Both the position numbers and the translations under genes were made by a program. This document shows positions 26,772 through 50,568 of a stretch of 64,000 bases of DNA, piece by piece; within the stretch, counting starts at the first letter, position 1; each line of letters begins with the position of its first letter. The notes beneath the pieces are model-generated. The model had not been told where the DNA came from. It ran no database searches and worked only from the letters and a program-made list of their open reading frames with translations. The stretch comes from Magnolia sinica (taxonomy: Eukaryota > Streptophyta > Magnoliopsida > Magnoliales > Magnoliaceae): assembly GCF_029962835.1 (NCBI RefSeq), contig NC_080586.1, positions 64,302,001-64,366,000 on the forward strand, read 5' to 3'.

Positions 26772-27075
26772 GGACGCGGATTAGCTACCGACCGGTTGAG
26801 TAGCTGATGAAGTGACGTTACCGAGTTCTATAGTACCACCCTGATGTATTTGTTATATCCACACCGTCCATCCATTTTGAGAGATCATTTTAGGGCAAGA
26901 ATTTTAAGACTGTGGACCCCACCTTTTAGCCAGCTGTTTTTATGAAAGAAGATAAACCTTCTTCTGCAACTTAGACATGCATGTGCGGATTACGAATTTC
27001 AGGACAAAAATGCCCTTCCTTTTTTCATACTCTTTTCGCTACTGCTTTTCAGCGTTGCTTTCACTCCCTTGACGA
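26772..27075 (+). repeat. Left terminal inverted repeat of the giant MULE
   Basis: Reverse-complement match to 49941-50568. Shared blocks include gactgtggaccccacctttt, agccagctgtttttatgaaa and gtgcggattac(g/a)aatttcagg, ending gctttcactcc. About 310 bp of hairpin present in the right copy is missing between ttttagggca and gactgtggac. Confidence 0.8.
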
Positions 27076-27384
27076 ACTATAAAGCATCGAGATATCCATC
27101 TAGATATTGTTATTCTACATTTTCTATATTTCATCTTGGCTAGGGGTACGTGAAATCCAATGAACTGGTTGCATCTTCTTAAAAAGGTTCAAAATATTCC
27201 CTCACTACAAAGCACCTCTCTTCAACCTGCATTTGACCGGTACTGCAACAGTCGGAGGTATAGATCTTGGAAAAAAAAGCTACACTCGTACAATGGCATT
27301 GCATGCGAAGTTTGGTCAATTCCATGTGTTACGCTTAGTCAATTTCATGCATTAGGCTTAGTTAATTTTATATGTTGATCGATT

Positions 27385-28480
27385 GAATCCATGTCAAACT
27401 TGCTCAATTCAATTTGAAGCTCACCCAATTCTATGTTAGAGCTCACTTGATTTGATGCTACGCTCGCTGAATTCCATGTTTACCCTGCTTAATTTCATGC
27501 TAGGATCGCTCAATTTAATGTTTGCCTAGCTTAATTTCATGGTAGATAAGGTCAATTTAATGTTTGCCGCGATAAATATAATGCTAGATTCGCCCAATTT
27601 AATGTTTGCCTAGCTTTATTTCATGGTAGATAAGGTTAATTTAATGTTTGCCGCGATAAATTTCATAATAGGATTGCTCAATCTACTGTTTGCCTAGCTC
27701 AATATTATCTTATGCTCGCTCAATTTACAGTTTGCCCATTCAATATCCATGCAATGCTTGCTCAATTTAATATTTGCCCCGCTCAATACCATGCTTTGCT
27801 TGCTCGAAGAAATGTTTGGCCAACTCAATATCACGCTATGCTCGCTCGAAATATTATTTGCCCCGCTCAATTTCGTGTTTGCCCCGCTCAATTTCATGTT
27901 TGCCCCGCTCATTTCCTAGTTTGCCCTACTCAATTTCATGTCTGTCCCGCTCATTTCCTAGTTTGCCCTGCTCAATTTCATGATTGGCGCGCTCAATTCT
28001 TAGTTTGCCCCACTCAATTTCATGTTTGCCCCACTCAATTTCATGCTTGCCCTGCGCATTTCCTAGTTTGGCCCACTCAATTTCATGCTTGCCACGCTCA
28101 TTTCCTAGTTTAGCCCGCTCAATTTCATGTTTGTCCCGCTCAATTTCATGCTTACCCCGCTCATTTCCTAGTTTGGGCCGCTCAATTCCATGCTTGCCCC
28201 GCTCATTTCCTAGTTTGCCATGCTCAATTTCATGCTTGCCCCGCTCAATTTCATGCTTGCCCTGCTCATTTCCTAGTTTGCCCCGCTCAATTTCATGCTT
28301 ACCCCGCTCATTTCCTAGTTTGCCTCGCTTATTTCCTAGTTCGCCTCGCTCAATTTCATGTTTGCCCCGCTCAATTTTATGCTTACCCCGCTCATTTTCT
28401 AGTTTGCCCTGCTCAATTTCAGGTTACTCCCGCTGAATTTCTATTTTGACCCGCTCAATTTTCAAGTTGCCCTGCTGAAT
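27385..28480 (+). repeat. Left subterminal 21-bp minisatellite
   Basis: About 50 tandem units of gccccgctcaatttcatgttt, alternating with gccccgctcatttcctagttt; degenerate before 27780, regular after. The same unit recurs reverse-complemented near the right end (44.3-49.0 kb). Because 21 is a multiple of three the array shows long but meaningless open frames on both strands. Confidence 0.9.
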
Positions 28481-28681
28481 TTCATGTGTACTCTGCTCAA
28501 ACTGATAATGCCTCCCTCGCTCAATGGCATGATAGATAGCGTCACAAAATTAAACAAGCACCACTTGAAACCATTTGTTAACGACGAAGGTCCTTCATTA
28601 TTTAATCGAGTTTTGTCATATGGCATGGTTCCATTGATTTATGATTTACTGATAATGTGTCATTGTATTGGTTTTCAGATA

Positions 28682-31084
28682 ATGGCTACAAGAATCATGT
28701 GATTTTTTGGCGGGGAGTTAGAATTTGAAAACAAGCGATACTCGTACACGGGTGAAACATCAAAACAAATGACACTATGTCTTGAGACTACGTACGAGGA
28801 TCTTCGATCTAGAATTTACAAGATTATTAAGAGCAGACCAGAAGATTGTGATATTAGGATGAAAGTATTGAATCCTTGCACTAACGAATCAATGCCTCCA
28901 ATCGAAATCGAAAACGACGATGATGTCAAAGAGTTCTTGTCTTACCAGTTTGAGCATTCGGATAAATTCATCACGTTAGTCATCGAAACAATCCAAAACA
29001 TCAATACCACAACATACGTGGACAGTGTGGCTGATGAGTATGACATGGAATTCAAATACAATCCCTCTCCATTATAAGTGGTAGTAAGCAATGATCAAAT
29101 ACCCGAACCGCCGCAAACATTGAACGTCGTGACTACGCAAGTTAGTGGTGCGGTTGACATTAAAAGTAATTATGAATACAAGACACCGCCGTTAGCATCA
29201 ACAGTGGATCTGCCATCATCGTCCACCCTCCCATCTGTGCGTGTAAGTGACATTCTGCTTTAAGACCTTCCCGATACATCAAACCTCATGACTCGTCAAG
29301 TTCTTATGCCATTTGATGATAATGCATTCACCAATGCAAAAATGCTGGAATATACTGATTTGTTATGTGAACCGACCGATATAGCTATTGGGCAAACGTT
29401 TAAGGACAAGAGTCAGTGCCAGTATGTTTTAAGTCAATTTGCAATTCGGAATAATTTTCAGTATAGAGTAATATACTCAAATTCCAGGAGATTTACCGTG
29501 GTGTACTTCGAAGATGCATGCGAATGGAGGGTTCATGCATCTCGGGAGAATGATACGGGTATATTCAAAATACAAACTTATGAATCAAAACACACATGCG
29601 GCATGACATGGATGAAGAGCGATCACCGACAAGCTAGCAGTAAGCTAGCGTGTGATCTGGTTATTAGCCGCATTGAACAACGCCTAGGGTTGAGGCCAGC
29701 TGACATTATCTTCGCCATGCAAGAGAAATATAATATTCGTATCAGTTATTGGAAGGCATGGAAAGCTAGGGAACTTGCAATTAATCACGTGATGGGGTCT
29801 TACGAAGATTCCTACAATCAACTCCCTTTGTATTTGCATGAGTTGAGGAGGGCCAACCCAGGGACAGTTACTGCCATTTCTGTAAACCAACAGACTTGGA
29901 GGTTTGAGAGATGTTTTTTAGCTCTCGGACAATGCATATGAAGTTTTCAGAAATCATTGCGGAGCATATTGGCTTTTGACAGGACACACTTAAAGGGTAA
30001 ATATAAGGGTGTGCTATTCATCGCCACAGCCTTAGATGGGGACAATCATATATTTCCACTTGCGTTTGACATCGGAGAATTAGAGAACAACAGTAGTTGA
30101 AATTGGTTCCTTACCCACCTTAACAATGTCTTAGGGTATGTGGAGGGTCTTGTCATTATATCCAACCGACATAAAGGTTTAATGAAAGAGGTTCCCCAAG
30201 TCTTCCCGCGTGCAATCCATGGGTATTGTGCGTACTACATGTACAAAAACTTGGTGGACACTTTCAAGGACAAGTCGTTGGAGATGTATTATTGGATGGC
30301 TGTGAAGACTTGCAGGATGGCCGAATTTGAAAAAATAATGCATGATATCGAAATGACCAATCCCCCAGTACATGCATGGTTGATAGAAATCGGGTACGAG
30401 AGATGGACATCTTCGCACTTTCCAGGAAGAAGATTCAACTTGGTCACGATGAACATTTCTGAGTGCGTTAATGCCATTTTCAAAGAAGCACGCGAATACC
30501 CCGTTATGAAATTGATAGAGGCTGTAATACTGAAGATACAGGAATTGTTTTACAAGAGACGAGAATCTGCGGCATCATTTGTGGGTCCATTGACACCATG
30601 GGCGGAGAATCAGTTAAAGGATATCATGTAGAAGGCGTGAGATGTTCGCTGCCATGCTATTTCTCGAGATGAGTACTATGTCGTTAGAGATTATAACGAT
30701 ACGGTGAAGCTCAGTGAGTTTTCATGTACATGTCGTGAGTTTGGCGTGAAGGGGTACCCTTGCATGCATGTCCTGTCAGCTTGCATAAAGTACAATCTGG
30801 ATCACTACTTATACTGCTCCCCATTTTACACGGCGCATAATTATCTGGCCATGTATAGTGAATCGGTGTATCCAATACGCGACAATAGCGAGTGAAAAAT
30901 TTCAGCGGGGATGAAGGAGTATTATGCGCAGATTAAACCCCCAAAACAGAGGAGGTCAGCTGAAAGACTCAAAAATCTTAGAATTCCATCACGTGGAGAG
31001 GAATCGAAAACAGTAAAGTGTGGGCGATGCAAACAAACCAGACATAATCGCCGGTCGTGCAAGCTTCCGATACCCGGTGTGTAG
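28682..31084 (+). pseudogene. mudrA: MULE transposase (MURA-like), decayed by point changes
   Basis: One uninterrupted register of 800 codons with eight in-frame stops (28700, 29075, 29261, 29939, 30098, 30629, 30638, 30893) and no frameshift. Domains: N-terminal region (about 28769-29077), MuDR N-terminal domain (about 29370-29700; FKDKSQCQYVLSQFAIRNNF, CEWRVHAS), MULE DDE domain (about 29960-30240; AFDRTHLKGKYKGVLFIATA with Asp at 29978, PLAFDIGELENN, WFLTHL), SWIM zinc finger (30704-30800; CTC...GYPCMHVLSA) and a C-terminal CX2CX4HX4C knuckle (31018-31065). The second catalytic Asp (usual ISDRHKGL) is Asn at 30164-30166. It binds element ends and cuts and joins DNA in the nucleus. The start was chosen at the ATG just after a possible acceptor ttttcag; upstream lies the minisatellite and TIR, the expected promoter side. 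Confidence 0.9.
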
Positions 31085-31110
31085 CATATCGTGTAATTTA
31101 TATAATTTAT

Positions 31111-31168
31111 GTACTTTGTATGATACATACAATTGAAAGTTATATATTGCTCCTAGTTGATCTTCATG
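31111..31168. repeat. 58-bp direct repeat bordering the helicase fragment (partner 31804-31860)
   Basis: tactttgtat(g/a)atacatacaa...gatcttcatg occurs at 31111-31168 and 31804-31860 with few differences, bracketing the helicase exons. gtatagcatatcgtgtaa-like bases are also repeated at 31081-31096 and 31169-31184. Looks like a filler or repair duplication made when the fragment was captured. Confidence 0.75.
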
Positions 31169-31269
31169 TATAGCATATCGTGTAAAAATGCACCAATTGT
31201 CAGCCCTATCTATACATGCATTCCATAATGCCCCCTTGTATTGTAAAAAGAAATTATCCACTATATTAC

Positions 31270-31806
31270 CTGCATAACAAGGGTGACATTTGGATAATCA
31301 ACACCATGTACAAATACATTAGAAGTCACAAGAATAAGACCTTTTGACTTCTGAAACTCATCTCCAACCATGGTTCTATAGAATGGATCTCCCGCACATT
31401 CAGGTTCAACTCGGAAAGAAGGTTAGCAACCAGTCTTGTGACCATTACATTAGTACAAAAGACAAGAAACTGCAATTAACTTCGACTGGTATAAACCAGA
31501 GGTTGTGGACTGAAGAATCTTGGCAAGAGGAGTAAAATTGATTTCGGTAACTGTTACAAAGTAATGATGCATACCTTATGGTCAATATTCTCTGATATAT
31601 GCTCTATGAGAATGCTATATAGTTCTGAAAATTGCGTGTCAAGAGGGGCAACTAAATGTGTCTGTCTGATCTGAGTCATAGTCCACATTGAAATATTTAT
31701 GGAAAAAGCAACTGAATAGGTTGAGCCACCCATCTAAAAAAATTTGTCATCACCAATCAAGAAGAAATCATGCATATGCTTTACCTGTGAGTGTGTCTCC
31801 TCATAC
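31270..31806 (-). pseudogene. Captured DEAD-box RNA helicase fragment, three exons with splice sites
   Basis: Minus strand. Exon piece 31785-31806 reads EETHSQ before donor cag|gtaaag. Exon 31575-31670, after acceptor gactcag, reads IRQTHLVAPLDTQF then SELYSILIEHISENIDHK and donor aag|gtatgc; its frame is intact. Exon 31270-31469, after acceptor aattgcag, reads FLVFCTNVMVTRLVANLLSE, LNLNVREIH, then (after a frame-breaking deletion where SRKPQS is usual) KGLILVTSNVFVHGVDYPNV, ending at donor cag|gtaata. These are the helicase C-terminal domain blocks of plant Mss116-like DEAD-box helicases (RH25/26/31/48 type); the usual VTSDVSARGVDYP is degraded. Introns are kept, so it was copied from genomic DNA. 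It lies antisense to, and directly after, mudrA. Confidence 0.85.
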
Positions 31807-31847
31807 TTTGTATAATACATACAATTGAAAGTTATGTATTGCTCCTA

Positions 31848-31916
31848 GTTGATCTTCATGTTTCTCACGTTAGAACATGTTGAAGGAATTTCACCACTTA
31901 GCCCATTGCTATCCAT
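31848..31916 (-). pseudogene. Captured leucine-rich-repeat exon (receptor-kinase type)
   Basis: Minus strand reads MDSNGLSGEIPST then CSNVRNMKI followed by a stop. LSGEIPST..N...(M/L)..I is the plant extracellular LRR consensus, and DS.G.SGEIPSTFANL is characteristic of LRR kinases of subfamily VIII, whose LRRs sit in roughly 72-bp exons. The piece is about one such exon. A chance match cannot be excluded at this length. Confidence 0.55.
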
Positions 31917-32070
31917 GCATATGTTAAAAGCAAGAACAGATTAGTAATCCAATTAGAAGATTTCTTACGCTCTTATTAGCTAGGGATTCCACAAACCAAT
32001 TGGATGAACTTAATTGAAAGTTCAAATAAACCATTTAGAGTTCTCGTCGATGGGCAACCACACCTTTCCA

Positions 32071-32151
32071 CCCATTTTCCGGTGCCTGTCTGTCCGTATG
32101 CGAAGATGCAGGCACTGTAACCATCAAAGGCAGATTTGATCACTGGCTCAA
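32071..32151 (-). pseudogene. Captured kinesin motor-domain exon fragment
   Basis: Minus strand, after acceptor ttttccaaag: EPVIKSAFDGYSACI then FAYGQTGTGK. FAYGQTGTGKT is the kinesin P-loop (ATP-binding site), preceded by the usual EP.I.SA.DG. The match stops right after GTGK, so the piece is truncated inside the motif. The third unrelated host gene in 0.9 kb and on the same strand as the helicase and LRR pieces. Confidence 0.8.
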
Positions 32152-32159
32152 CTTTGGAA

Positions 32160-34690
32160 AAAAAAAATTCGATTAAAAGTTTTCAAGAACGAATCCAACT
32201 GAACAATTTCACATTGAGAAGCAACTAGGAAACTGCATTTATAACAATAGATAAATGGGACCTCCTTCATACCTAAAGATAGAGAGATTCAAATTAGGTC
32301 CCAAGTGCCCCATTAGCAAGGCATCTGACCAGAACAATGGTCCCAATCAGCATACATATTTGCGATGGGTGTGGTGGTGGAGCAACACCTAATAGAACTT
32401 CACGAAGCACAACATAATAGCATCTCTCGATGCCACATTGCATCATTCAGTACATAATCGTTATGCATATTATTGCATCAGAATGCACAATTAACATAAA
32501 GATTATCTGAAATCATTTGCTAATGTGGAGTATAGATAATCAGGAAGGAACATATGACATGGATTTAGAGAAAACGTCTCTGATATATAGTAGGATACCA
32601 AATTACTACTTCAATAAATCGCTTATAACAAATAGAAGGATCAATTCCATGTTGAAGTTATAGTTCGAGTTTAGGCTAATTTTGGCTTAGATCCAGCTTT
32701 CCTGCATGATTTCTTTTGATCATGGTCATCCATGAAGTTATGTCACTTGTTCTACATAAATCATCAATTAGTCTAATTTTTCAAAGAAGCCTTTGAGAGT
32801 TCACTAGCCTTGATGAACAGTTTGGATGGGTGATGGAAATGCCAATGAGGTGATTGCAACTATAACCCATCCTCCAGTGGGTCACCCCACCACTATAACA
32901 GGACACCTTTAAATACCTGGCCAGTACAACTATTGAATGGCCCCACATGAATTTGAAGGTTTTTGGGCAGTTTTCCCTTGTTCTCTATGGTGTGGCTGAT
33001 TGGATTGGTCTGTCTTTTAAGGCATCCTATTTCACAGTGGGGATGTGACCCTACAGGACAGTTTTCATGCCACACACATGCTAGAGTTCCACATCCATGA
33101 CAAAATAACAGAACCCTATAGGCCAAAACAGCACCGTCCTTTTCACAATTTAAAAATTCAAAAAGAAAAAGGATAATAACTTACCAAAAGAAAAATATGA
33201 GAGATACCAAAATATTGATGACAACATACAATAACCTGTATGAATCAAATTCAAACCAAAACAAGCCAAACCAAGACAAATTAAGACACACCCAAAACAA
33301 CTCTACCTTTATACCTCCAATTTTTTTTTTTAAATAATAATAACAAGGCAAAGCAAAAATGCCCATTACTTGCACACCCATGACAAAATAACAGAAACCC
33401 AAAATAGCTCTATCCTTATGAAAAATTTAAAAAAACAATACAAAAAAAGAAAAGGAAATACCTTGCTAAGAGAAAAATGAGAGATAACCAAAACATCAAT
33501 GCACCTGAGGCGCATGTTAGTAGGAGGGGAAGGGAAGAGGGTTTTGAAGCTCACCATTGCTCCTGCTACCGTTGTTGCTGTTGATGCATTAATCGGCATC
33601 CCTAATGGAGAATAAAATGCTATAATCGGCATTCTTAGACCACGAAAGCAAGCAAACCTGTAACTGATTCGGTAGTAGGGTTCCTGAATGGGTAATTTGT
33701 CCACTACCGAGAAGAGATCGAGAGCATGAACAGGAGATATAGCATGTATCAAGTAATCTTGTTGTGATCAGATCCAAATTTGAAATTTCTCATTGTAAAA
33801 TAAAAATATAAAATATGTAAGGAAAACGAACAAGTTGAATCTTTACCAAATTCAGGGAAAGAAATCATATATGCACTTCATTATGCACATTGATAATTAT
33901 CCGAAACCTGACTGGAATCAATCAGAGCCAGAAGATAATAAGCATCCAAATGGAATCAAATGCAGCAAGTTCACATATCATGAGAAAACATATAAATTTG
34001 CCAAGCAGACAACAAATTCATAACACCACGTACTATAATCACAAAAGTCATGAGGCGAAGATGCAAGGTCAATGAGGAAGTTCATTTATAATCACACTTA
34101 GAGATAAATAGTTTGAAGGGGTCATGGTGAGGCTATGGGCAACATGGTTCACCAAAAAAGAATTTAGATGGCAAGCTGTAGTAAACTTAAGGCTGGGCTG
34201 AGTTCTTTTTTCAGTTTTGTCGAATGGGCAGATTGATATAAGAGTGGCAGTCGGGTGTGGCAGAGGATTGAGGGGATAGTTTATGAATAATGAATTCTTT
34301 GATAAAGGTGAATGGCATGGTTGAGATTCTTGAGTACATCTACAGTCCAGAGGAAGTGCATAAATAAATTTCATCATAACACCAAATACTATAATCAAAA
34401 TAAGTACCCCAAGTTTAGGCACTAAAATCATAGTCCCCTGGATCAGTTCAAGTAAAATTAACGCCACTATTTAAAGAAACAGTTTGACAATAATATCCGA
34501 TAGGCTTGGCATCCCAAAAAGATACTTGATGCACAAGCCAACAGACATGACTAAATGCAGTCTATCTGGACGGACCGCCATCCAGTGGAGCAACATCATC
34601 ATGCCGGCAGGTGATTGTGGCAATAAGGGTGTCAATCTTATCCTCGACCCGTTCCATACCCTTCTGGATGGCCTAAGAAAGCCGCTCCAG
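32160..34690. other. MULE interior with unassigned pieces
   Basis: No certain gene. 32890-33120 carries a dispersed repeat (ttgggcagttttccc..., relative at 25260). Minus-strand 33500-33777 has an open stretch (IHAISPVHALDLFSVVDKLP) with donor-like cag|gtttgc and an ATG-led MVSFKTLFPSPPTNMRLR, possibly another captured exon pair of unknown origin. 34069-34467 (minus) is an open frame I do not recognise. Confidence 0.3.
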
Positions 34691-35869
34691 TCACGTGAGT
34701 CGTTTGTCCTGCTCATCCATGTGCCTGATAATGTGTGCCCTGCGGTTACGGTATGGCATCCTTCGACTAGTATGACCATACGAGGATCGTGGCTGCTCTC
34801 CCTCTGTAGGATAGTCGATGTCGGCTGCCTCTGTCTCAGCCGCGTCCGTCCCTGCAGCCTTTGTCTCCACTGCCTCTGCTTCTGTCTCTCCCATAAAATC
34901 TTCACTGCGCCTTACTGATGTCGAAGCCCCTTTCAACCTCAGTTTCATGCGCTCGATGTTGTTTTGTGTAAACATTTTCATGGGTCTGGGTCGGTCAGTG
35001 GTGGGCATTAGGCCAACATGACGGGAGAGTAAACATAATAGGTGTGGGAATGGAATGGCATCCTTTCTCGTGGTTGCTATGCTGTCGGCAATTATTTGAG
35101 TAATGATGGTGGGCAAACACAGACGAATACCATGACAGATGCTGTATAGAATATCTAACATATACGAAGTAATGTCAGACTTGTTCGAGTCCCTCAGATA
35201 AACGTTCCAGGTGAAGATACTGTGTAGCACCTTGTACTTGTCTTCCAGGTGCGTTGCTCTCAGTGCATTACCCTTATGCCAAGGAACATTCTGTCCTTTA
35301 CAAAAATACTTCGTCATTTCTAGCCGCATAGTTGGGTCATCAATGTTGTGATCCGTTAAGCCTCGACCTGTGGCTGGAATCCCTAAAAGCTATGCAACCA
35401 CCCCAATATCAATGGTGGTGGTTATCTCTCCAATGGTCACCTGAAATGAAGCAGGGTGCGTTATCGGCGAGTGACAGTATGATAGAAATATGATCACTTG
35501 CTCATTTCTAATTGTCCCTCCAAAATCTAACAGGTTACTCCACCCAACATTCTCCAAAATCTGTGAAATCCCAAATTGCTGGATGCAAGCTCGATCGACT
35601 TTTTTCTTATATACTATTTTTCGGACGCGATATTTGTCATACATGTTCGCAGGGGGAGGAGGAACCTGTGGGATCAATTGTTCTGGTTGTATTGGTGGAG
35701 GGGGATCCTAAATTGGAGTACTCCTTTGAATACGAGCTCGCCTAGCCGGCGATTCGGTCGGGGAAGTCCATTCCTCTGCCCGTTTCAATCTACGTCTTGA
35801 ACAGAGTTTGGTACGATCTCCCTTGGATGACTCTCCAACCATGACCTTTTTTCCTTTATTCTTAGGCAT
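34691..35869 (-). pseudogene. Putative plant transposon protein (PF20167-like)
   Basis: Minus strand, start at 35869 (MPKNKGKKVMVGESS, a basic N-terminus). One register runs to 34691 with two internal stops (35708, 35390) and no frameshift. Conserved blocks: KIVYKKKVDRACIQQFGISQ then GWSNLL (N-terminal half) and KYKVLHSIFTWNVYLRD...SYMLDILYSICHGIRLCLP...FPHLLCLLSRHVG (C-terminal half), matching the pattern of the 'putative plant transposon protein' domain often found in plant mobile elements. A Glu/Ala-rich segment (ETEAEAVETKAAGTDAAETE) and a basic end MDEQDKRL follow. The biochemical role is unknown. Decay style matches mudrA: point stops only. Confidence 0.6.
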
Positions 35870-36504
35870 TATGACGATTGAGATGATATTGCCTGTTATA
35901 AACAAAGGAAATAATAAAATAATGCAATTAAGGTAATTAAGGTAATAAAATCATCTGAAGGAAATTTGTCGATATTATGTGTGAGAATGTTCCCTAATTT
36001 GGAAGGAGAAATGGATTGGTTCCAACAGCCCTAATTATATTTCTATTAATTTGGAACTTTTGGCTGGTCGCAAGCTCAATCAGTGAATCAATGATGTTTA
36101 TGGGCCACTTGCTCCCACAGCTAGTGATCGACAATACTAATGGGTCACTCACCACCCATATTACTTGAGACATGAAAAAGCAGAAACAATTCAATTAAAC
36201 AATATCATTCAATACATTCAAATTGTAACAAAAGAACACAATGGTTAGAAAATAATTCTCAATTTTTTAAATAAACTGATTCACCTCTGAAATGCTGTGA
36301 ATAAGTATATTAATGAAAACGTGCACTGTCAACATATGCATGCAAATTGACATAACATATACGAGAAAAATAGATTGTTAGAATAAAAGAATGGTACATA
36401 TTCAACATTCACATCCTATCAGCCCAATGAAGATCTGTGCCCCTACTGTTGCCAAATTGTTCATTTGCCGGCCAAGGCAATTAAGGTAATCCGGGGACAC
36501 ATAG

Positions 36505-37129
36505 TTAATTCATTGCTCCCCAAATCGTATGATCAGTGTTTGCAATCTTGATAGCGTCGGTATCACAGTTCACACAAATTTCAAATATTTGGTCCAACCA
36601 AACACACCCAACATCAGCAATAATTTTTTTTTCTTTTATTTTCGGATTTTCTTCGCATAACTTACAACGACAAAGGCAGGTTAGATCACATTCCTCTATT
36701 CTTAAACCAAAGACCACCATCATAGGCTCATAGATTTGTAACTGGGGCATCTCTCTATAGGAATGATGAATGAGATAGACTCTAATGAAACTTCACCACC
36801 ATTTCAAAAATGGTGGGGACACGACCATCATATATATTGTATGGCACGTTTCCTAAACCATAACTATGACAAGAAGATCAAGAACTTATCCACCATCAGT
36901 GCTTCAAGAACCTGTAGAACACAAACACAGCATTTCACATCGATTGCAATGAAGACAAACATACCGAGATCGTCAAAGAAGAAATCCCTCGAAGAGCCCC
37001 GTTGCTAATGTGGAGAAATCCGGTTGAGATGAAGTGGAGAGAACGTTTTGGAAGATGGATTCTAAAAATGGAATTTGAGAGAAATAAAGGATGGTTGGTG
37101 AAAGTAGTTAATGCTGTATTTTTTTTCAA
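36505..37129 (-). other. Possible two-exon Cys-containing ORF, unassigned
   Basis: Minus strand: a leader (about 37129-36963) with donor-like tcg|gtatgt, a short intron ending ctacag, then ORF 36750-36505 starting MPQLQIYEPMMVVFGLR with closely spaced cysteines (CDLTCLCRCKLC, later EICVNC). The Cys spacing hints at zinc binding, but I recognise no family. 35906-36500 shows nothing clear. Confidence 0.25.
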
Positions 37130-37139
37130 AACCGAGCAT

Positions 37140-38080
37140 CGTCGATAATATCGACAACTTGTCGATATATCGACACTATCAAAATTTCAACGGTCAGAGC
37201 ACTGGAGAGTTCAGTTCTTTGTTCGATATTATCGACCAATAGTCGATATATCGACAATATGCTGTCGATAGTATCTAGAACATGTCGATATATCGAGTAA
37301 AATGGAATTTTTGGAGTTTTGTTACTGGATACATTCAGACGTAATTCAATATTATTGACAATCTGTCGATATATCGATAAGTGGCGAAAAATCTACAATA
37401 GATATATCGACAAGCTATCGATATATCGACATATTATGAAAATGGATCAAAACTTCGCTGCACATTTGCACTCCAGAGTCTATATTATCGATACCTCATC
37501 GATATAATCACAACTTACGTCGATTATATTTGTAATATGTTGATCATATCTACAACTTACGTGGATCATATCGACGATATATCGATAACATCGACCGTGC
37601 ATTTCTGGTTGTTAAATTCGTAAATATCATCGACATATCGTCGATATATCGACATTGTGTCGATATGATTTATAAATTCTCGATATATCGATTAAATATG
37701 GATTTTTTTGGGTTTGCTCGCTGGACAAATGAGGACATAATTCAATAATATTCACAAGATGTCGATATATCGACATGTCATCTGGTATCGATATATCGAC
37801 ATGTTGTCGATATATCGATTAAATATGAATTTTTTGGGTTTGCTCGCTAGACAAATGAGGACATAATTCGATAATATCCACAAGATGTCGATATATCGAC
37901 ATGTCATCTGGTATCGATATATCGAAATGTTGGCGATATATCGATTAAATGTGGAATTTTTGGGTTTGTTCGCTGGACAAATGAGGACATAATTCGATAT
38001 TATCCACAAGATGTCGATATATCGAGATGTCTTCTACTATAGATATATCGACATTGTGTCGATATATCGATATACAATGC
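37140..38080. repeat. Palindromic CGATATATCG array with a 125-bp higher-order unit
   Basis: More than 20 copies of (t)gtcgatatatcgac(a) or near variants, each self-complementary. From about 37740 they sit in units starting attcgataatatccacaag at 37740, 37866 and 37991, period about 125 bp, sharing gggtttgctcgctggacaaa. Earlier units are more degenerate. No coding signal; located in the centre of the MULE between the two convergent gene sets. Confidence 0.9.
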
Positions 38081-40285: not shown

Positions 40286-40778
40286 CCATCTCAAAAGTGA
40301 ATAAAAGCATCCAACTAAGAGTAAATGGATACAAGGATCATACAATTCCACTTGGGTGCATTGGAAGAATGAGCACAATGATCATACAGGTTTCAATTTT
40401 AATATTCCCCACATAATAGTCACCCAGTTTCCCCTGCTGCAGTTTGGCATGAACCCATAGTTTCCAAACATGGCCTAGAGAAAACACAAACATCCCTAAA
40501 CTCCCTTTAAAAATCACCCCATTGCAATAAAAAGGAGTAGGAAGTGCCCTACAGTGGTTGCATCATTGTGCATAAAATCCGTACAATCTGTAATATCAAG
40601 ACATTGAACTTGATCTAGAGCAATTGCCAAGCATCGAGTTCCATGTGCATTGTACTTGATCGATGAGCATATCGAGACAAACTGAAAATATTGTTGGACA
40701 GTATAAAGTTCATTTCATCATTCACTAAAATTAAAGAGTATGCTATACATCGAAACTTACACTTCCGGTGAGTATGCA

Positions 40779-40919
40779 GAAAATTTTCAAGTATATGCAT
40801 TTCAGTGCGAGTTCTTTCTCTAATCATGATAGACTTGAGAGGAATTCGGATCAACCCTTCCAAGGCTATCGTGATTAGAGAAGGAACTCGCACTGAAATG
40901 CACATACTTGGAAATTTTC
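40779..40919. repeat. 141-bp hairpin, arms 54 bp and about 93 % matched
   Basis: Left arm 40779-40832 and right arm 40866-40919 are reverse complements with four mismatches (gaaaattttcaagtatatgc... / ...ttggaaattttc). The 33-bp loop is itself partly self-complementary. It lies just beyond the stop of the Ulp1-like gene, so its transcript could fold here. Confidence 0.9.
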
Positions 40920-40992
40920 AGCGCTCCAAGATTACTGTAAACCTCCAAATAATACATTCTTATAAAATTTTCTCCCTTGCACTGCACAAATA

Positions 40993-43900
40993 TCACCTCC
41001 TGACTACAAACAAGCAATCATATGCTATCGACTTCCTCCAATCGGAGGTGAATTTTTGCATGTCTATTCTCTCCAAGGTGAGACCGCTACACAAAATGTC
41101 AATGAATTTCATTACGAATATGCCGCAGTCATAACCATTGTCCCGCTTTGGCGCGGATTCATCGAATCTGACGGTCCACTTCTTCCCTTCAAGCGCAGTA
41201 ATGTCTCCAGTGGCATGGAAGAGAACGGGGAGTGCATCGGTCATATTCTTCATCTTATGCTTGAACTTCGGTGTTAGATATGTGTATAAGCTATCCACAA
41301 TAACAATTTCTCTTTCTCTAGGATAGATGACAAGAAAAAACCAATGTGAATTGTCATGATTTATTGGCGCATAAATCTGTCCATGATTCACAAAATAATA
41401 TATTTGTCAAAACATGATAGAACATATAACAGTAAGAGAAGATGTTCTGTGACGAGTGCATTACCCGTTCATAACACCAAATCGCTCTGGCATATGGTTT
41501 ATCTCGCTGCCTGCCAATTGTGTAGGCCATGGTCAGCTGGCCTATTAGCGACGACCGTTCTGAAGCCGAATTGGAGGCCTGGTATGCGATCAAAACTGGC
41601 AAACACCCCTCAAGGCTTTGCTGTTACAAACATGATGAAAGTTCAATACATGTAATAAAATAAAATTTTCAAACAGATTAAAGATTGCCGTAATAAACAT
41701 TTACCGTAAAATACGTAGGATAAAACTTGCAATCATGAGGATATGCTATTGAGAGGGCGTTATGCCTTTTCTCAAGGAAGTCGATGTATGTGTCGATAGC
41801 CTAATCTCCATGATAGTATGATTTCATCATATATCCATATAACAATTAATTACATGGCAATCGATGCATATAGAGAATAAATTAGTAATAATTACCTCGC
41901 TATCAACCCAGGCATCCTTCATCCATATCATTCTGAACCATTTTCCCTCTGACATGTTCTTGTTTACTTCATACCAGTCCTCTGCCTCTTTCACCTCCTG
42001 TGCGGATAGTATCCTGAAAGGATCCATCTGTACAGGAAATGGTATCGGAGAAGTAGCAAAAGTTGTTACTTATTCGGGTTCACGAACCGCCCCAGGGGTT
42101 GTATCGAATGCAGACAGGCCTTGTAATATGACGGCGTCAGTATCCTTTTGGTTCTCCTTTCATAAACGGGAGGAGAAGTGGATGCATGTTCAAGTTCTTT
42201 ATCTTCAATATCATTTACTTCCACTCTATTCCTCAACTCCTCACCCTCCTCATCCTTCACAAAATGCCCCCTCTGTTTAGGACTACCTTCCTTTTCCTTA
42301 TTAAACTCATCCCTCTCATTCGCTAACTTTTCCTTGTCCGCCCCAGGGGTTGTATCGAATGCAGACAAGGATAAGTATAGAGAAATCTTGTAATATGACA
42401 GCTTCGGTATCCTTTTGGCTCTCCTTTCATAAACGGCATGAGAAGTGGATTCATTCCATACATTACCTTTGACATTACTATATGATTGCACATCAAGATC
42501 CACATGTCCAAGTTCTTTATCTTCATTATCATTTACTTCCACTCTCTTCCTTAACTCCTCACCCTCCTCCTCCATCACATTATGTGTCCTCTGTGTACGA
42601 CTACCTTCCTTCTCCTTATTAAACTCCTTCATCTCATTCGCTAACTTTTCTTTGTCCTTGAAGAATCATTCTTTGTCCACAAAGAACAATTCCTTCTCCC
42701 TCCTCAATAACGTTTCCCTGTCATCAAACAATGCTTCTTTCCTTCTCATCTCTGCCCTCTCTTTTCTCAATTCGTCCCTCTCATTTTTCAATTCCTCTTC
42801 TCCTTCTTCAACTCTTCCCTCTCAATCATAAATTCCTCCATAAGAACAACATTCGGTCTACCACCCCTCGTTCCCTCTCCCTTCTCGCCCTTCTCATCGC
42901 TATCATCTGACTCGTCACCCTCCTCGTGATCAATCTCATTACCCTCCTCATCATCTTCCTGAGTCTCAGTAAGCTACAAAAATATATAGATGGATATGTA
43001 AGAGTAAGGATAACTTTATAATGGCAGACATGAAAATATAGTTCATTTTCAGTAACATCTCACCTGGAAACTGTCACGCACAGAGCGAACGGCATCCGTT
43101 TCTCATTCTCATAGTGTTGGTTCTAATTTCATTACTACTGTTGTCTGCAAAAGAAAAAAAAGTAATGTTAAATAAAAAAGCATATACGTCAAGTTAAGCA
43201 AAGTAAATGATGGGGATATATATATATATAAACTTATAGCTTTACTCTCGAAAATAGCATGTATTCTGTTATACCTTCAACCCTTCCAGCCTCGATATTG
43301 AATGAAGCGTGGAATTTGATGCGGAACGTACGAAACAACACACTCTTGTAGGGCCGGTAATATCTCTACTGCCCATACCTATTAGAATGAAATTGTACCA
43401 GGTTAAAAATCCATAATTGACTATAAAGGGAAAACATATATAAAGTAAAAGGTGTTCTTACTTATAGAGGAAGGACACAATCACATACAGTGTACCGAGG
43501 GGAACTTAATGCAACAACAGCAGATTCGATTCCTTGCGACATTGTATAGTATCCCAAACTACCCCAGGGATACCTATAGAAATCATCTAGCGAGTCAACT
43601 AGGTAAATATAATCCATGTTGCACATAGTTTTCGGTTCGGTTCCCCTAAGAAAGTACTCCATAACTAGAAGTAGGGCAACCTTCACGACGTCCTCATGCT
43701 CGTTGGTGTCAACTAATCTCTCAAACACCTCCATTAGTTGCTTCTTTAATACTGAATATTCTTTGAAGTATTTGTCTCTTAATGAACCCGTACTGCAACG
43801 ATTCTTCGGTACAATTAGATCTCCAATCTTAAGACCGGTAATGAGGGCGAAGTCCATCTCGGTAAAGTGCAATAGCCTCCCCTTGATCTCAAATAGTAGA

Positions 43901-44040
43901 TCACTTTTGTATCTTACAAAAAGAAGGTGAAATAGAGCCCCTAAAAATCTAAAGGATGTAACATGCAATAGAAACGAGAAAGAAGATTGTCTAAACAAAT
44001 TTAGACGACTATCGTGCTTATCCACTCCACCCTTCACCTT
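40993..44040 (-). pseudogene. DUF1985-Ulp1 (peptidase C48) gene of the MULE
   Basis: Minus strand, several exons. DUF1985 lies at about 44037-43462 (FRFLGALFHLLFVRYKSDLL, MDFALITGLKIGD, DDFYRYPWGSLGY), donor-like ata(a)|gtaagaac, then an exon near 43385-43270 (WAVEILPALQECVVSYVP, IPRFIQYRGWKGLK), a Lys/Glu-rich coiled-coil linker (about 42850-42060), and a Ulp1 protease domain (41391-40993): NSHWFFLVIYP (catalytic His), IVDSLY (Asp), DNGYDCGIFVMKF (Cys). The Gln usually six residues before Cys is Arg (CGG). Ulp1 enzymes cleave SUMO from proteins; DUF1985-Ulp1 proteins are a known cargo of plant MULEs. Frames are interrupted. It reads inward from the right end, facing mudrA. Confidence 0.8.
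42089..42657 (-). repeat. Tandem duplication inside the Ulp1 gene linker
   Basis: Units 42089-42339 and 42340-42657 share gccccaggggttgtatcgaa and the segment coding EFNKEKEGS...GEELR(K/N)RVEVND(N/I)EDKEL...VYERR(A/T)KRI. The Lys/Glu-rich linker is thus doubled; the first unit carries a deletion. Confidence 0.85.
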
Positions 44041-44289
44041 ATCAAACCACCATGTAAGTAAACACCTACATGTTGGGTTGGGGATTACGGTAGAATATTC
44101 GTCGCCTACAAAGATGAATTAAAAAACATATCAAACATAAAATTCACAAGATAAACGTTGTGGACAAAATCAGACTACGTTGAAAAGAATGTAGTATTTC
44201 ATTAATTTGAACAAGCTTCATATAAAATGGAGATAGAACTGGAACGGGAAATACCGAAAATTGTGCAAGCCAAACTACCAACGTAAGCA

Positions 44290-45030
44290 AGATAAACTAT
44301 AATTTGATCGGGACAAACATGAAATTGAGCGGGGTAAACTACATAATGAGCAGGGCAAGGTAGATATTCAATGGGGCAAACTATAAAAAATTCAATGCAT
44401 AATCTCCTGAACGATGTGTATTCCTGATTAATCTCATTTTTCAATTATTCAACCATATCATTTTACCAAGTTCAACGTTAGCTAGATTAGTGAACACATA
44501 TATGTTTCGATGCAACAAGAAGATGTTATTTGTAATTGATTTTGTTGGTTGGTTAATTAGCCACAATTTCTTCATGAAATGGGTTGGATTCGTATTAGAT
44601 CAAATAAGTAGATGTAATCAACTAGGGCAAACATGAAATTGAGCGGGGCAAACTACAAATTCAATGGGTCAAACTAGAAACTCAGCGGGGCAAACATAAA
44701 ATTGCGCAGGGGAAACTAGAAAATCAGCGAGGCAAACATGAAATTCAGTGGAGCAAACTATGAATTCAGCGGGGCAAACTAAAAAATCAGTGGGGCAACC
44801 TGGAAAATCAGCGGGGCAAACATGAGATTGAGCGGCGCAAACATGAAATTGAGTGGGGCAAACTAGAAAATCAGCGGGGCAAGCATGAAATTGAGCGGGG
44901 CAAACTAGGAAATGAGCAGGGCAAGCATGAAATTGAGCGAGGCAAACTAGGAAATGAGCGGGGCAGTCATGAAATTGAGCGGGGCAAGCATGAAATTGAG
45001 CGGGGCAAATATGAAATTGAGCGGGATATA
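44290..45030 (-). repeat. Right subterminal 21-bp minisatellite, block 1
   Basis: Units caaacatgaaattgagcgggg, the reverse complement of the left array. Scattered at 44290-44395, regular at 44625-45030. It lies upstream of the Ulp1-like gene, mirroring the left array upstream of mudrA. Confidence 0.9.
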
Positions 45031-45052
45031 CTACATACATTCAATGTGGGCC

Positions 45053-46530
45053 CATCTAAGTGTAGGTTATAGGTTTAGGTTATAAGTGTCGGTTATAGGT
45101 TTAGGTTTAAGTTGGGTTATAGCTTAAGGGTTAGGGAACTGAGAATAGGTTAAGGTTTAGGTTTAGGAAATCGGGTTCGGGACCGGGTTTAGGTTTGGGT
45201 TTTCAAGTTTAGGTTTAGGTTAAGGAGATCATATTAAGATTAGGTGTAGGTTTAGGTTTAGGGATTTGAGAATACATTTAGGTTACGGGTTTAGGTTTAG
45301 GTTATAAGTGTTGGTTATAAGTTTAGGTTTAAGTTAAGTTATAGGTTAAGGGTTAGGGAACTGAGAATAGGTTAAGGTTTAGGTTTAGGAAATCGGGTTC
45401 GGGACCGGGTTTAGGTTTGGGTTTTCAAGTTTAGGTTTAGGTTTAGGGATTTGAGAATACATTTAGGTTATAAGTTTAGGTTTAGGTTATAAGTGTCGGT
45501 TATAGGTATAGGTTTAAGTTAGGTTATGGGTTAAGGTTTAAGGAACTGAGAATAGGTTAAGGTTTAGGTTTAGGAAATCAGGTTCAGGACCGGGTTTAGG
45601 TTTAGGTTAAGGAGTTGAGATTAGGATCAGGTGTAGGTTTAGGTTTAGGGATTTGAGAATACATTTAGGTTACAGGTTTTGGTTTAGGTTATAAGTGTCG
45701 GTTATAGGTTTAGGTTTAAGTTAGGTTATAGGTTAAGGTTTAGGGCTCATTTGCCCGGGCGGATTGGAAGGGATTGAATGGTATTAGGGTGGATGACATG
45801 GATTTCTAGGTAATGGTGTTGTCGGTGGATTGTCTGGAGATCCATGGGATTGCTATATCCCTGGATTGTTATATCTAGTTTGTTTGGCACGCCCGACCAA
45901 TCCTGGGATTAAACCTTCTCATCCCTTCCAATCCCTCAAACCAAACACGTCCCACGCAAATTTGAAAGGATTAGGGTGGATTGGATGGGATTTAAAGGTA
46001 ATGATGGTGTTGACAGTGGATTGTCTTAAGATCCATGGGATTGGGATCAAATCACCGACTCTGTTTGGCACGCCAGGCCAATCCCGGGATTTGACTTCCA
46101 ATCCCTTCCAATACCATCCAATCCCTTCCAATCCGACCGGCCAAACGGGCCCTTAGGGAACTGATAATAGGTTAAGGTTTAGATTTAGGAAATCGGGTTT
46201 GGGACCGAGTTTAGGTTTGGGTTTTCAAGTTTAGGTTTAGGTTAAGGAGTTAAGATTAGGATTAGGTGTAGGTTTAGGTTTAGGTTTAGAGATTTGAGAA
46301 TACATTTAAGTTTTAGGTTATAAGTGTAGGTTATAGGTTTACGTTTAAGTTAGGTTATAGGTTAAAGTTTAGGGAATTGAGAATAGGTTAAGGTTTAGGT
46401 TTAGCGATTTGAGAATACATTTAGGTTTTAGGTTACAAGTGTACAATATAGGTTTAAGTTTAAGTTAGATTATAGGTTAGTGTTTAGGGATTTGAGAATA
46501 CATTTAGGTTTTAGGTTTAGGTTTAGGTTT
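45053..46530. repeat. Telomere-like (GGTTTA)n-rich minisatellite, block 1
   Basis: Runs of ggtttaggtttagg mixed with ttataagtgt(c/a)ggttatagg, gaactgagaataggttaagg and gatttgagaatacatttagg in a repeated order of roughly 200-300 bp. The base unit is mostly TTTAGG, not the plant telomere TTTAGGG. Interrupted by a MITE at 45743-46152. Confidence 0.85.
45743..46152. mobile_element. Tourist-like (PIF/Harbinger) MITE, copy 1
   Basis: Inverted ends gggctcatttgcccgggcgg / ccgaccggccaaacgggccc, TSD TTA on both sides (45740-45742, 46153-46155). The interior contains two similar halves around atccatgggattg. A TTA duplication and a GGGCC(C)GTTTG end fit PIF/Harbinger. Confidence 0.8.
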
Positions 46531-46534
46531 AGGT

Positions 46535-46999
46535 TTTGAGCGGGGGCAAACATGAAATTGAGTGGGGGCAAACTAGAGAATCAGCGAGGGAAACATGAAA
46601 TTGAGTGGGGCAAACTAGAAATTGAGCGGGGCAAACATGAAGTTGAACGGGGCAAACTAGGAAATGAGCGGGGCAAGCATGAAATTGAGCAGGGCAAACT
46701 AGGAAATGAGCGGGGCAAGCATGAAATTGAGCGGGTCCAACTAGGAAATGAGTGGGGCAAGCATGAAATTGAGCGGGGAAAACTAGGAAATGAGCAGGGC
46801 AGGCATGAAATTGAGCAGGGCAAACATGAAATTGAGTGGGGCAAACATGAAATTGAGTGGGACAAACTGAAAAATCAGCGGGGTAAACATGAAATTGAGC
46901 GGGGGAAACATGAAATCAGCGGGGCAAACTATAAAATCAGTGGGGCAAACCTGAAATAGAGCGGGGGAAACATGAAATCAGTGAGGCAAACTAGAAAAT
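46535..46999 (-). repeat. Right subterminal 21-bp minisatellite, block 2
   Basis: About 22 units of the same sequence, inside the first 2-kb duplication unit. Confidence 0.9.
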
Positions 47000-47119
47000 C
47001 ATTATGCCCACTGTTTCCCGTGGTATGATTCACTTGATATTTTGATATGCTTCAATTTGAGGCTCAACCGCTAAAATTAGATGGATGGCGTAGATATACT
47101 ACATACATTCAATGTGGGC

Positions 47120-48515
47120 CCATCTAAATGTAGGTTATAGGTTTAGGTTATAAGTGTCGGTTATAGGTTTAGGTTTAAGTTAGGTTATAGGTTAGGGGTT
47201 AGGGAACTGAGAATAGGTTAATGTTTAGGTTTAGGAAATCGGGTTCGGAACCGGGTTTAGGTTTACGTTTTCAAGTTTAGGTTTAGGTTAAGGAGTTTAG
47301 ATTAGGATTAGGTGTAGGTTCAGGCTTATGGATTTGAGAATACATTTAGGTTACGGGTTTAGGTTTAGGTTATAAGTGTCGGTTATAAGTTTAGGTTTAA
47401 GTTATAGGTTAAAGGTTAGGGAACTGAGAATAGGTTAAGGTTTAGGTTTAGGAAATCGAGTTCGAGACTGGGTTTAGGTTTGGGTTTTCAAGTTTAGGTT
47501 TAGGTTTAGGGATTTGAGAATACATTTAGGTTATAGGTTTAGGTTTAGGTTATAAGTGTCGGTTATAGGTATAGGTTTAAGTTAGGTTATGGGTTAAGGT
47601 TTAGGGAACTGAGAATAGGTTAAGGTTTAGGTTTAGGTTAAGGAGTTGAGATTAGAATTAGGTGTAGGTTTAGGTTTAGGGATTTGAGAATACATTTAGG
47701 TTACAGGTTTAGGTTTAGGTTTAAGTTAGGTTATAGGTTAAGGTTTAGGGCCCGTTTGCCCGGGCGGATTGGAAGTGATTGAATGGTATTAGGGTGGATG
47801 GCATGGATTTCTAGGTAATGATGGTGTTGTCGGTGGATTGTCTGGAGATCCATGGGATTGCTATATCCCTAGATTGTTATATCCAGTCTGTTTGGCACGC
47901 CCGGCCAATCCTGGGATTAAACCTTCTCATCCCTTCCAATCCCTCAAACCAAACATGTCCCATGCAAATTTGAAAGGATTAGGGTGGATTGGATGGGATT
48001 TAAAGGTAATGATGGTGTTGACAGTGGATTGTCTTAAGATCCATGGGATTGGGATCAAATCACCGACTCTGTTTGGCACGCCAGGCCAATCCCAGGATTT
48101 GACTTCCAATCCCTTCCAATCCGACCAGCCAAACGGGCCCTTAGGGAACTGATAATAGGTTAAGGTTTAGGTTTAGGAAATCGGGTTCGGGACCGGTTTT
48201 AGGTTAATGAGTTTAGATTATGATTAGGTGTAGGTTTAGGTTTAGGGATTTGAGAAAACATTTAAGTTTTAGGTTATAAGTGTAGGTTATACGTTTATAT
48301 TTAAGTTAGGTTATATGTTAAAGTTTAGGGAATTGAGAATAGGTTAAGGTTTAGGTTTAGGGATTTGAGAATACATTTAGGTTTTAGGTTACAAGTGTAC
48401 AATATTAGTTTAGGTTTAAGTTAGATTATAGGTTAAGGTTTAGGGAATTGAGAATAAGTTAAGGTTTAGGTTTAAGGATTTGAGAATACATTTAGGTTTT
48501 ATGTTTAGGTTTAGG
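47120..48515. repeat. Telomere-like (GGTTTA)n-rich minisatellite, block 2
   Basis: Same composition and order as block 1, with the same MITE at the same place (47748-48140), so it arose by duplication. Confidence 0.85.
47748..48140. mobile_element. Tourist-like MITE, copy 2 (duplicate of copy 1)
   Basis: Same insertion site and TTA flanks (47745-47747, 48141-48143) as copy 1; a copy made by the segmental duplication, not a second insertion. Confidence 0.8.
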
Positions 48516-48519
48516 TTTT

Positions 48520-49005
48520 GAGCATGGGCAAACATGAAATTGAGTGGGGGTAAACTAGAGAATCAGCGGGGCAAACATGAAATTGAGCAGGGGAAACATG
48601 AAATTGAGTGGGGCAAACTAGAAATTGAGCGGGGCAAGCATGAAATTGAGCAGGGCAAACTAGGAAATGAGTGGGGCAACCATGAAATTGAGCGGGGCAA
48701 ACTAGGAAATGAGCAGGGCAACCATGAAATTGAGCGGGTCATACTAGGAAATGAGCAGGGCAGGCATGAAATTGAGCAGGGCAAACATGAAATTGAGCGG
48801 GGAAACATGAAATTGAGTGGGGCAAACACGGAAATAAGCGGGGCAAGCATGAAATTGAGCGGGACAAATTGGAAAATCAGCAGGGCAAACATGAAATTGA
48901 GCGGGGGAAACATAAAATTAGCGAGGCAAACTATAAAATCAGTGGGGCAAACATGAAATTGAGCGGGGAAACATGAAATCCGTGGGGCAAACTAGAAAAT
49001 CATTA
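48520..49005 (-). repeat. Right subterminal 21-bp minisatellite, block 3
   Basis: About 23 units, inside the second 2-kb duplication unit; internal order of variants differs slightly from block 2. Confidence 0.9.
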
Positions 49006-49117
49006 TGCCCATTGTTTCCCGTGGTATGATTCACTTGATATTTTGATATGCTTCAATTTGGGGCTCAACCCCTTAAATTAAATGGAAAAACGGATGGACG
49101 GCGTGGATATACTACCG

Positions 49118-49806
49118 AAAATGGATTGGCTACTCCCCTTGCCACCAGCCAATGGCTGGTGTTCGGTGCTCCGTGGGCCCCATCATGATGTATGTGTTTC
49201 ATCCATGTCGTCCATCTATTTTTATAAATTATTTAATCATATTATACAAAAATTGAGGTAAATCCTAATCTCAATTGCACCACATTATAGGAAATAGTGT
49301 TTAATGAACATCGACCATTAAAAACTTTTTGGGGGCTATAAAAGTATTGGGTCAAGATGATCTTTGTTTTTAGCCTTCATCTGGGTCTTTATCACCTAAA
49401 AAATAGATTGGATTTCAGACAAATAGTACGGTGGGCCTCAGGAGGATGAAATTTCCATCCAAATTTCCATATGGGTCTTAATCACCATTGTTTTCCTCTA
49501 GCAGGCCACCAGCCAAATTTCCATCTAATTTGGGGCTCAACCCCTTAAATTAGATGGAAATTGAGAGGACAAAATGGATGAAACACATACACCATGGTGG
49601 GGCCCACAGAGCACCAACCACCAGTCACGTACACCATGGTGGGACCCACAGAGCAACGACCACCAATCACGTACACCATGGTGGGGCCAAAGAGCACCGA
49701 CCACCAGCCATGTACACCATAGTGGGGACCACAGAGCACCGACCACCAGCCACGTAGATCATGGTGGGGCCCACAGAGCACTGGAGAAGCAGCCAATCTG
49801 TTTCCT
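49118..49806. mobile_element. Foldback element with one arm amplified in tandem
   Basis: Left end gaaaatggattggctactcc, right end (reverse complement) ggaaacagattggctgcttc; arms share gtgctc(c/t)gtgggcccca. Flanks tatactacc / tatacccat match at 6 of 9, suggesting a Mutator-type 9-bp duplication. It interrupts the third copy of the gatatactacatacattcaa junction. The right arm holds the 43-bp array at 49590-49777. Confidence 0.65.
49590..49777. repeat. 43-bp tandem repeat, about 4.5 units
   Basis: Unit tacaccatggtggggcccac + agagcaccgaccaccagccacg. Equivalent to one segment of the opposite arm (49165-49205), so the arm was amplified. Confidence 0.85.
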
Positions 49807-49940
49807 ATACCCATACATTGAATGTGGGCCCAACTGAGTTTAAAATATACCTGTGTTGCGTGCTTTCTTCGCTGGACCGACCATTTTCAGAAGAAGACAA
49901 AGGGGGCCCCACAAAAAGGGTTTTTTTGTCTTTCTAACTA

Positions 49941-50568
49941 GGTGAAGAAAAGGAGTGAAAGCAAGGGCACTGAAGTAGCAATGGAAAGGGAAAGGAAAAG
50001 GAAACAGTTGAAAGGGAGAAGAAAAACAGCAGTGAAAAGGAGGGGTATTTTCGACCTGAAATTTGTAATCCGCACGTGCAGGTCTAAGTTGCAAAAGAAG
50101 GTTTGTCTTCTTTCATAAAAACAGCTGGCTAAAAGGTGGGGTCCACAGTCCTAAATTTCTCTTTTAGGGCCTGAGACAAATAATGAGGCAGATCCAAAGC
50201 TGTAGTGGACCCCACCACAGAAAACAGTGGAGAGATTAATTGCCATCGTTGAAACCTTCCTATGGTCCATTATGATGTTTATTTGAGATCCAAACCGTTC
50301 ATGAGTTAACGCATTTATTAAAGAAGGGAAAACACAAGTATCAGCTTGATCCAAAACTTTTGTAGCACTTACAAATTTTTAATGGTGGGCGTCACTCTCT
50401 CCACCGTTTTCTGTGGTGGGTCCACTCGAGATTTGGATCTGACTTATGCTTTAGCTCATGCCTTAAAATGGTCCCTTCAAATGGATAGACGGTGTGGATA
50501 CAAAACATACATCATGGTGGGACCCACCGAACTTCGCTACTCAACCTGTCGGTAGCTGATCCGCGTCC
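49941..50568 (-). repeat. Right terminal inverted repeat of the giant MULE
   Basis: Longer partner of 26772-27075. Between its matching blocks it keeps a roughly 310-bp hairpin (about 50155-50480) whose arms carry ccaccacagaaaac / gttttctgtggtggg and cagatccaaa / tttggatctg. Confidence 0.8.

Follow-up and report, generated by a model that had tools for sequence, protein, structure and literature searches.

The window analyzed here is a stretch of 64,000 bases of Magnolia sinica (contig NC_080586.1, positions 64,302,001 to 64,366,000; 39.2% G+C, no N), and the families found in it suggest a plant's gene content. Between positions 26772 and 50568 it contains an element of 23,797 bp with matching inverted termini, in which a 21-bp unit is repeated about 114 times (47 times on the left and 67 on the right). 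The arrays of this unit lie upstream of both end genes, a mudrA-type transposase relic on the left and a putative DUF1985–Ulp1 gene on the right, always in a single orientation, towards the gene. On balance, and by analogy with known systems, we favor reading the element as a decayed, formerly autonomous Mutator-like element (MULE) with terminal inverted repeats (TIRs) and of the VANDAL/Kaonashi working type, the 21-bp array being its presumed target. The protein class, the Ulp1 domain, the opposed mudrA, the peptide duplication, and the arrays with two types of unit are the reasons for seeing in it a dead relative of the VANC system. All structural statements are drawn from one single copy.

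The left array (27440..28540, plus strand) has 47 units pointing at mudrA and stops ∼150 bp before the start of that gene. On the right, three arrays occur on the minus strand: R1 (44220..45040, 24 units), which points at the adjoining DUF1985–Ulp1, R2 (46530..47005, 21 units), and R3 (48510..49005, 22 units). R1 is dense from 44625 on, with scattered units below. Measured to the open stretch around DUF1985, the lone unit at 44318 is 200 bp away and the dense block ∼500 bp, both on its upstream side. These counts allow at most eight mismatches to the consensus and use only the sense orientation of each block; shuffled arrays gave means of 2.5, 1.8, 1.5, and 1.5 units, with a maximum of seven. 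The unit corresponds to about two helical turns, and 98 of the 110 successive steps between units are exactly 21 bp. When the entire window is searched in both directions with at most four mismatches allowed, all 65 matches fall inside the element (25 on the plus strand at the left, 40 on the minus strand at the right), against a mean of 0.05 matches in 20 simulated first-order Markov sequences. A 13-base core behaves similarly, with 46 of its 47 matches in the element (17 plus-strand on the left, 29 minus-strand on the right) and one at 61922. Each of the four arrays mixes two interleaved subtypes of the unit (the outer part of the left array has one subtype only) and, for that reason, the left and right arrays are probably of common origin. 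An earlier note on this DNA had mentioned internal arrays, which the confinement of the matches to the element bears out; that they stand ahead of the two end genes, each time in one sense, is a point absent from it, and VANC target arrays can be placed likewise. As in VANDAL and KIU elements, the tandem motif arrays occupy non-coding DNA beside genes. Coding sequence was considered for the arrays and rejected: the information at the three codon positions (means 1.11, 1.14, and 1.34) shows nothing clearly like a protein, and long open frames are to be expected from a 21-bp period by itself.

The three right arrays are part of a larger repetition. A block of ∼2 kb, made of a 21-bp array and a TTTAGGTTTAGG-type array, is present in two-and-a-bit tandem copies, 84% alike, at 44624..49115 (minus strand). 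Between 45050 and 48520, the TTTAGGTTTAGG-type arrays, telomere-like and degenerate, alternate with the 21-bp arrays; TTTAGGTTTAGG occurs in the window as 30 exact 12-mers, all in the 45.0–49.0 kb bins. A further array, with a 42-bp unit, is found at 49584–49781.

The mudrA-type relic (28682..31084, plus strand) contains DBD_Tnp_Mut, MULE, and SWIM domains in one frame. All three families (PF03108, PF10551, and PF04434) exceed the Pfam cut-off, which places the relic among the MULE/MuDR transposases, and, since every domain sits in the same frame, no frameshift is seen. The frame does contain eight premature in-frame stops ahead of the terminal stop. Its N terminus is PB1-like, below the Pfam cut-off, and a CX2CX4HX4C knuckle is present at the C-terminal end. 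The second catalytic Asp reads Asn, judged against the usual MULE motif. A SWIM domain and a CCHC knuckle, both carried here, are among the features given for transposases of the VANDAL group (PMC6446971).

On the opposite strand, the DUF1985 domain (43543..43917) lies within an open stretch at 43462–44118 and scores 57.7 bits (cut-off 35.1); it is a domain of VANC-type proteins. The Ulp1 catalytic domain (Peptidase_C48, 41029..41376) follows 2.2 kb downstream on the same strand, with a profile match of 69.6 bits (cut-off 20.7); the catalytic H, D, and C are kept in the alignment with yeast Ulp1. Between the two is a charged segment (42087..42657, minus strand) that is tandemly duplicated, with copies at 42087–42339 and 42338–42657 (70.6% DNA identity); a stop interrupts the longest frame of this segment. 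For the DUF1985 stretch, the AlphaFold model has a mean pLDDT of 33.9 and was not interpreted. About 100 bp past the end of the Ulp1 match there is an imperfect 147-bp palindrome (40776–40922; 83% self-complementary). The mudrA relic reading from the left and the DUF1985–Ulp1 unit reading from the right had both been proposed before, together with a Kaonashi-type kinship; the domains found, above their cut-offs and on opposed strands, agree with all three proposals.

The left TIR (26772..27023, plus strand) starts with GGACGCGGATTAGCTACCGAC and the right one (50035..50568, minus strand) has ∼295 extra base pairs (50161–50455) absent on the left. The two pair in an outer part (26772–26900 with 50568–50456; 74%, E 2e-15) and in an inner part (26898–27023 with 50160–50035; 91%, E 1e-44), for an alignable length of ∼250 bp per end. 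In the terminal 33 bp, 31 positions are identical, and in the inner 126-bp block, 115; anywhere else in the window, on either strand, the best match to the left terminus is 22/33, at 50632. The inverted repeats had first been placed at 26.77–27.08 and 49.94–50.57 kb: they are real, but the alignment stops at 27023 and 50035. The first description, of a single large MULE-like unit bounded by inverted ends, is thereby supported. The extra ∼295 bp contain most of an imperfect hairpin, and hairpin-like sequence is repeated at 49.2–49.4, 50.7–51.3, and 56.6 kb; because it belongs to this repeated family, the part 26836–26902 of the outer match counts for less. The hairpin family may resemble repeats of magnoliid and tea genomes. 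A possible continuation of the inverted ends outwards has a score of 18, which 2.8% of 2000 shuffles attained, and the 300-bp flanks scored 20 where shuffles averaged 18.1; this is too weak for use. At 50632–51265, 63 bp beyond the right end, there is a second end of similar kind, pointing outwards and with related hairpin sequence. A partner for that outward-pointing end was not found.

The units of the arrays carry a trace of decay. When the units are compared with their consensus, transitions from C to T or from G to A are seen at 46 of 228 CG sites, 16 of 114 CHG sites, and 45 of 798 CHH sites; the corresponding figure for A/T transitions, without the subtype positions, is 41 of 798. Array by array, CG transitions amount to 15/94, 9/48, 10/42, and 12/44 and CHH transitions to 23/329, 11/168, 6/147, and 5/154, so that the CG rate is the higher one in all four. 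The arrays have thus probably been under methylation for a long time. If silencing and anti-silencing were engaged in an arms race, such a methylation scar on the presumed targets would be expected.

In VANC, the anti-silencing protein of the Arabidopsis VANDAL MULEs, DUF1985 is accompanied by variable regions in which peptide motifs are repeated in tandem. The targets of VANC proteins are described as short motifs, tandemly repeated in non-coding parts of their own elements, for example ahead of VANA and within the introns of VANB and VANC (PMC5735166). Silencing and anti-silencing are reported to hit the same non-coding regions (PMC10398659). The Arabidopsis VANDALs (VANDAL21/Hiun and VANDAL6, with VANA, VANB, and VANC; Hosaka 2017; Sasaki 2023) share with the present element a mudrA-type transposase, a DUF1985 protein with a repeated variable middle, a further coding unit, and tandem arrays in non-coding DNA beside genes. 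The present element differs by its long TIRs, its Ulp1, its 23.8 kb, its decayed state, and a repeat unit that is different and longer and stands before both end genes. In Kaonashi (KI/KIU) MULEs (Hoen 2006, via PMC2528002 and PMC13317346), as far as they are described there, Ulp1 is likewise opposite to mudrA and there are three coding units; the Ulp1-bearing VANC genes are the KIU genes, and Kaonashi is one of the three coding genes of its MULEs (PMC13317346). The opposite orientation of mudrA and Ulp1 is stated for KI-MULEs, which are described as non-TIR, unlike the present element (PMC2528002). The same grapevine survey (Benjak 2008) presents large TIR-MULEs, Mutavine-1 (17.7 kb, 70-bp TIRs) and Mutavine-18 (16.2 kb, TIRs of 230–263 bp, with an ULP1 region), and places ULP1 in both TIR and non-TIR MULEs; the two are shorter than the present element, and DUF1985 and arrays go unmentioned in the part of the description available (PMC2528002). 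With Pack-MULEs, the element has in common captured scraps of host genes between TIRs. Pack-MULEs are mostly 1–2 kb (PMC6431247) and lack a transposase of their own, whereas here a mudrA relic and accessory genes are kept beside the fragments, which sets the element apart from that class.

If the reading as a dead TIR-bearing relative of the VANC system is right, the element may have worked as follows. The mudrA product would have cut and joined the element ends. The DUF1985–Ulp1 protein, on the model of Arabidopsis VANC, would have been the element's own sequence-specific anti-silencing factor and would have bound the 21-bp arrays; with arrays beside the transposase gene and beside its own gene, both could have been freed from DNA methylation together. 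The host would then have methylated the arrays, as the CG decay trace (and CHG on the left) suggests, and the element would have died, as the eight premature stops in mudrA and the Asn at its second catalytic Asp suggest.

Several points weigh against this reading. The two motifs known from Arabidopsis, those of VANC21 and VANC6, show no enrichment here (two against 2.2 expected and four against 3.1 expected), and with these at chance the identity of the target rests on analogy; such a result is expected if families differ in their targets, yet it gives no support. The decay trace speaks for silencing, not for anti-silencing. Moreover, the Fisher value for CG versus CHH transitions (P = 4e-10) is too small, the units being related by duplication and not independent. 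Transversions are commoner at CHH (93/798) than at CG (10/228; CHG 7/114), so that decay accounts for only part of the change in the units. In the CHG context, transitions by array (12/47, 3/24, 1/21, and 0/22) are clear on the left only, and the signal comes from one unit position (12/47 on the left, 4/67 elsewhere). At the position of the oxyanion-hole Gln of Ulp1, an Arg is read. The union of DUF1985 and Ulp1 in one gene is suggested by order, strand, and spacing, and mudrA is at most a candidate member of the VANDAL clade. No 9-bp target duplication was found. At the single length tried, 9 bp, the flanks agree at no more than 5/9 even when each side is shifted by as much as 8 bp; this is poorer than random places usually achieve, since 234 of 300 such pairs score 6/9 or better. 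The element has the TIRs of a MULE, then, and lacks a detected duplication of the 8–11 bp type; loss by age or rearrangement could account for this. Finally, with ∼250 bp per end, the TIRs are neither absent nor short and degenerate as in VANDAL and KIU elements. The Arabidopsis VANDALs are mostly without long TIRs, unlike the present element, in an account that tabulates TIRs of 46–174 bp within the VANDAL group (PMC6446971).

A first rival explanation denies any relation between protein and arrays. The arrays might be ordinary minisatellites, grown by slippage inside the ends of a large MULE in which DUF1985–Ulp1 is a passenger. That repeats have expanded in tandem both as 21-bp units and as ∼2-kb blocks would fit such an origin, as would the unrelated arrays in the same element (the TTTAGGTTTAGG type and the 42-bp unit), which point to a sequence prone to form arrays, and the target role is assigned to the 21-bp arrays by reasoning and not from binding. 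But slippage leaves aside that the same unit occurs at both ends, in one orientation towards both genes and with every one of the 65 matches so arranged over the two strands, that the step is so regular, and that the same two subtypes recur in all four arrays; neutral growth does not predict arrays beside both end genes of a MULE of the VANC class. We consider a minisatellite origin unlikely, if worth keeping in mind.

Two other explanations concern the ends. The mirror orientation of arrays inside both ends is also that of a repeat recognized by a transposase, and the arrays could be subterminal binding sites, or long extensions of the TIRs, instead of VANC-type targets. The innermost right array is, however, ∼5.5 kb from the right end and close to the gene, and VANC-type targets are documented, in the sources cited above, for the very class of protein that is encoded here; subterminal sites seem to us improbable. 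A composite, in which the left and right ends of one MULE family belong to two insertions joined by deletion or recombination, with genes from different copies, would explain why no target duplication was found. The further related end at 50632, facing outwards 63 bp outside the element, likewise implies that several copies or fragments are present here. Against it are the arrays of one kind mirrored inside both ends and the way in which mudrA and Ulp1 face each other, as described for KI-MULEs; old insertions are also often without a recognizable duplication, and the grapevine survey reports duplications in a subset only (PMC2528002). A composite is, in our judgment, very improbable.

Besides the two end genes, the interior contains a third open reading frame (34691..35869, minus strand) with a partial match to PF20167 (Transposase_32) and two internal stops. 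The match reaches 33.9 bits, below the Pfam threshold of 45, so that of the third transposon-type gene announced in the earlier note there remains a partial, sub-threshold frame. Its AlphaFold model has a mean pLDDT of 44.3 and was not interpreted. PF20167 is reported in an extra open reading frame of a sunflower Athila long terminal repeat (LTR) retrotransposon (PMC11728184); for this reason, the frame is kept as a possible third gene only, and an origin of Athila type is possible. Upstream of it by 1.3 kb is an array of the palindrome TCGATATATCGA (37130..38080, without strand), partly organized as a 126-bp unit. TCGATATATCGA has 14 exact places in the window, all within 37.0–38.5 kb and each on both strands, as a palindrome must be. 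The array is CG-rich and little decayed, with a CpG observed/expected ratio of 2.25 (0.66 for the whole element).

The captured host pieces announced in the earlier note are present. They comprise a fragment of a kinesin motor around the P-loop (32075..32164, minus strand; 30 residues, E 2.9e-8) and a piece resembling the C terminus of a DEAD-type helicase (31112..31861, minus strand), where the Helicase_C match is weak (∼31270–31377, E 0.046). This second piece has a 58-bp direct repeat on both sides (31112–31169 and 31804–31861; 96.6%), which looks like a footprint of capture. A nested LTR retrotransposon was considered as the cause of the size and rejected on the strength of the following searches. 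The longest direct pair in 31–41 kb outside the TCGATATATCGA array is 137 bp (33087–33215 and 33370–33496; 74%), the next being the 58-bp one. Two patterns of primer-binding sites gave no reported match in 32–41 kb. Domain scans inside the element, which covered frames in 28.6–33.6 and 33.0–42.9 kb on the plus strand and in 31.2–33.0, 33.0–40.5, and 40.0–44.6 kb on the minus strand, reported neither a reverse transcriptase nor an integrase family.

The size and the gene set are less unusual than the earlier note held, and the placement of the arrays is the new point. The 23.8 kb stands as given there, and it is less exceptional beside the grapevine MULEs of 16.2 and 17.7 kb (PMC2528002); a layout with three genes, thought unusual, has a parallel in the Kaonashi genes (PMC13317346). 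In the literature covered, with most papers from subscription journals and the 2013 and 2022 VANDAL papers outside it, the largest MULE that we came across has 17.7 kb, and we saw no description of a TIR-MULE with one such array ahead of both end genes. In that literature, sequence-specific anti-silencing by an element's own protein is shown experimentally only for Arabidopsis VANDALs. If the reading is true, the DUF1985–Ulp1 protein and the 21-bp unit, with its ∼114 copies, would be a testable pair of protein and target in a TIR-MULE outside the VANDALs, and would bear on whether the anti-silencing system began in TIR-bearing MULEs. More tentatively, and with low confidence in the whole, one may see here a TIR-bearing, 24-kb relative of the VANDAL system, independent of or older than the non-TIR VANDALs of Brassicaceae, in which one 21-bp array before the transposase and the anti-silencing gene would let DUF1985–Ulp1 switch both on together, while the third gene would have a palindromic array of its own in front of it.

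Scans of a viral collection with two patterns and three proteins found no relative, and one scan of a genome collection returned single matches at eight loci of bacterial records, which we judged to be chance. Elsewhere in the window, frames at 61101–63553 resemble, by eye only, a Ty3/gypsy reverse transcriptase, RNase H, integrase, and chromodomain. Direct repeats offset by ∼345 bp occur at 59005–60369, with first and last parts up to 94% alike. A direct repeat of ∼0.95 kb (5782–6714 and 11526–12496; 81%) has more copies at 8.4, 10.4, and 14.0–14.5 kb, partly inverted.

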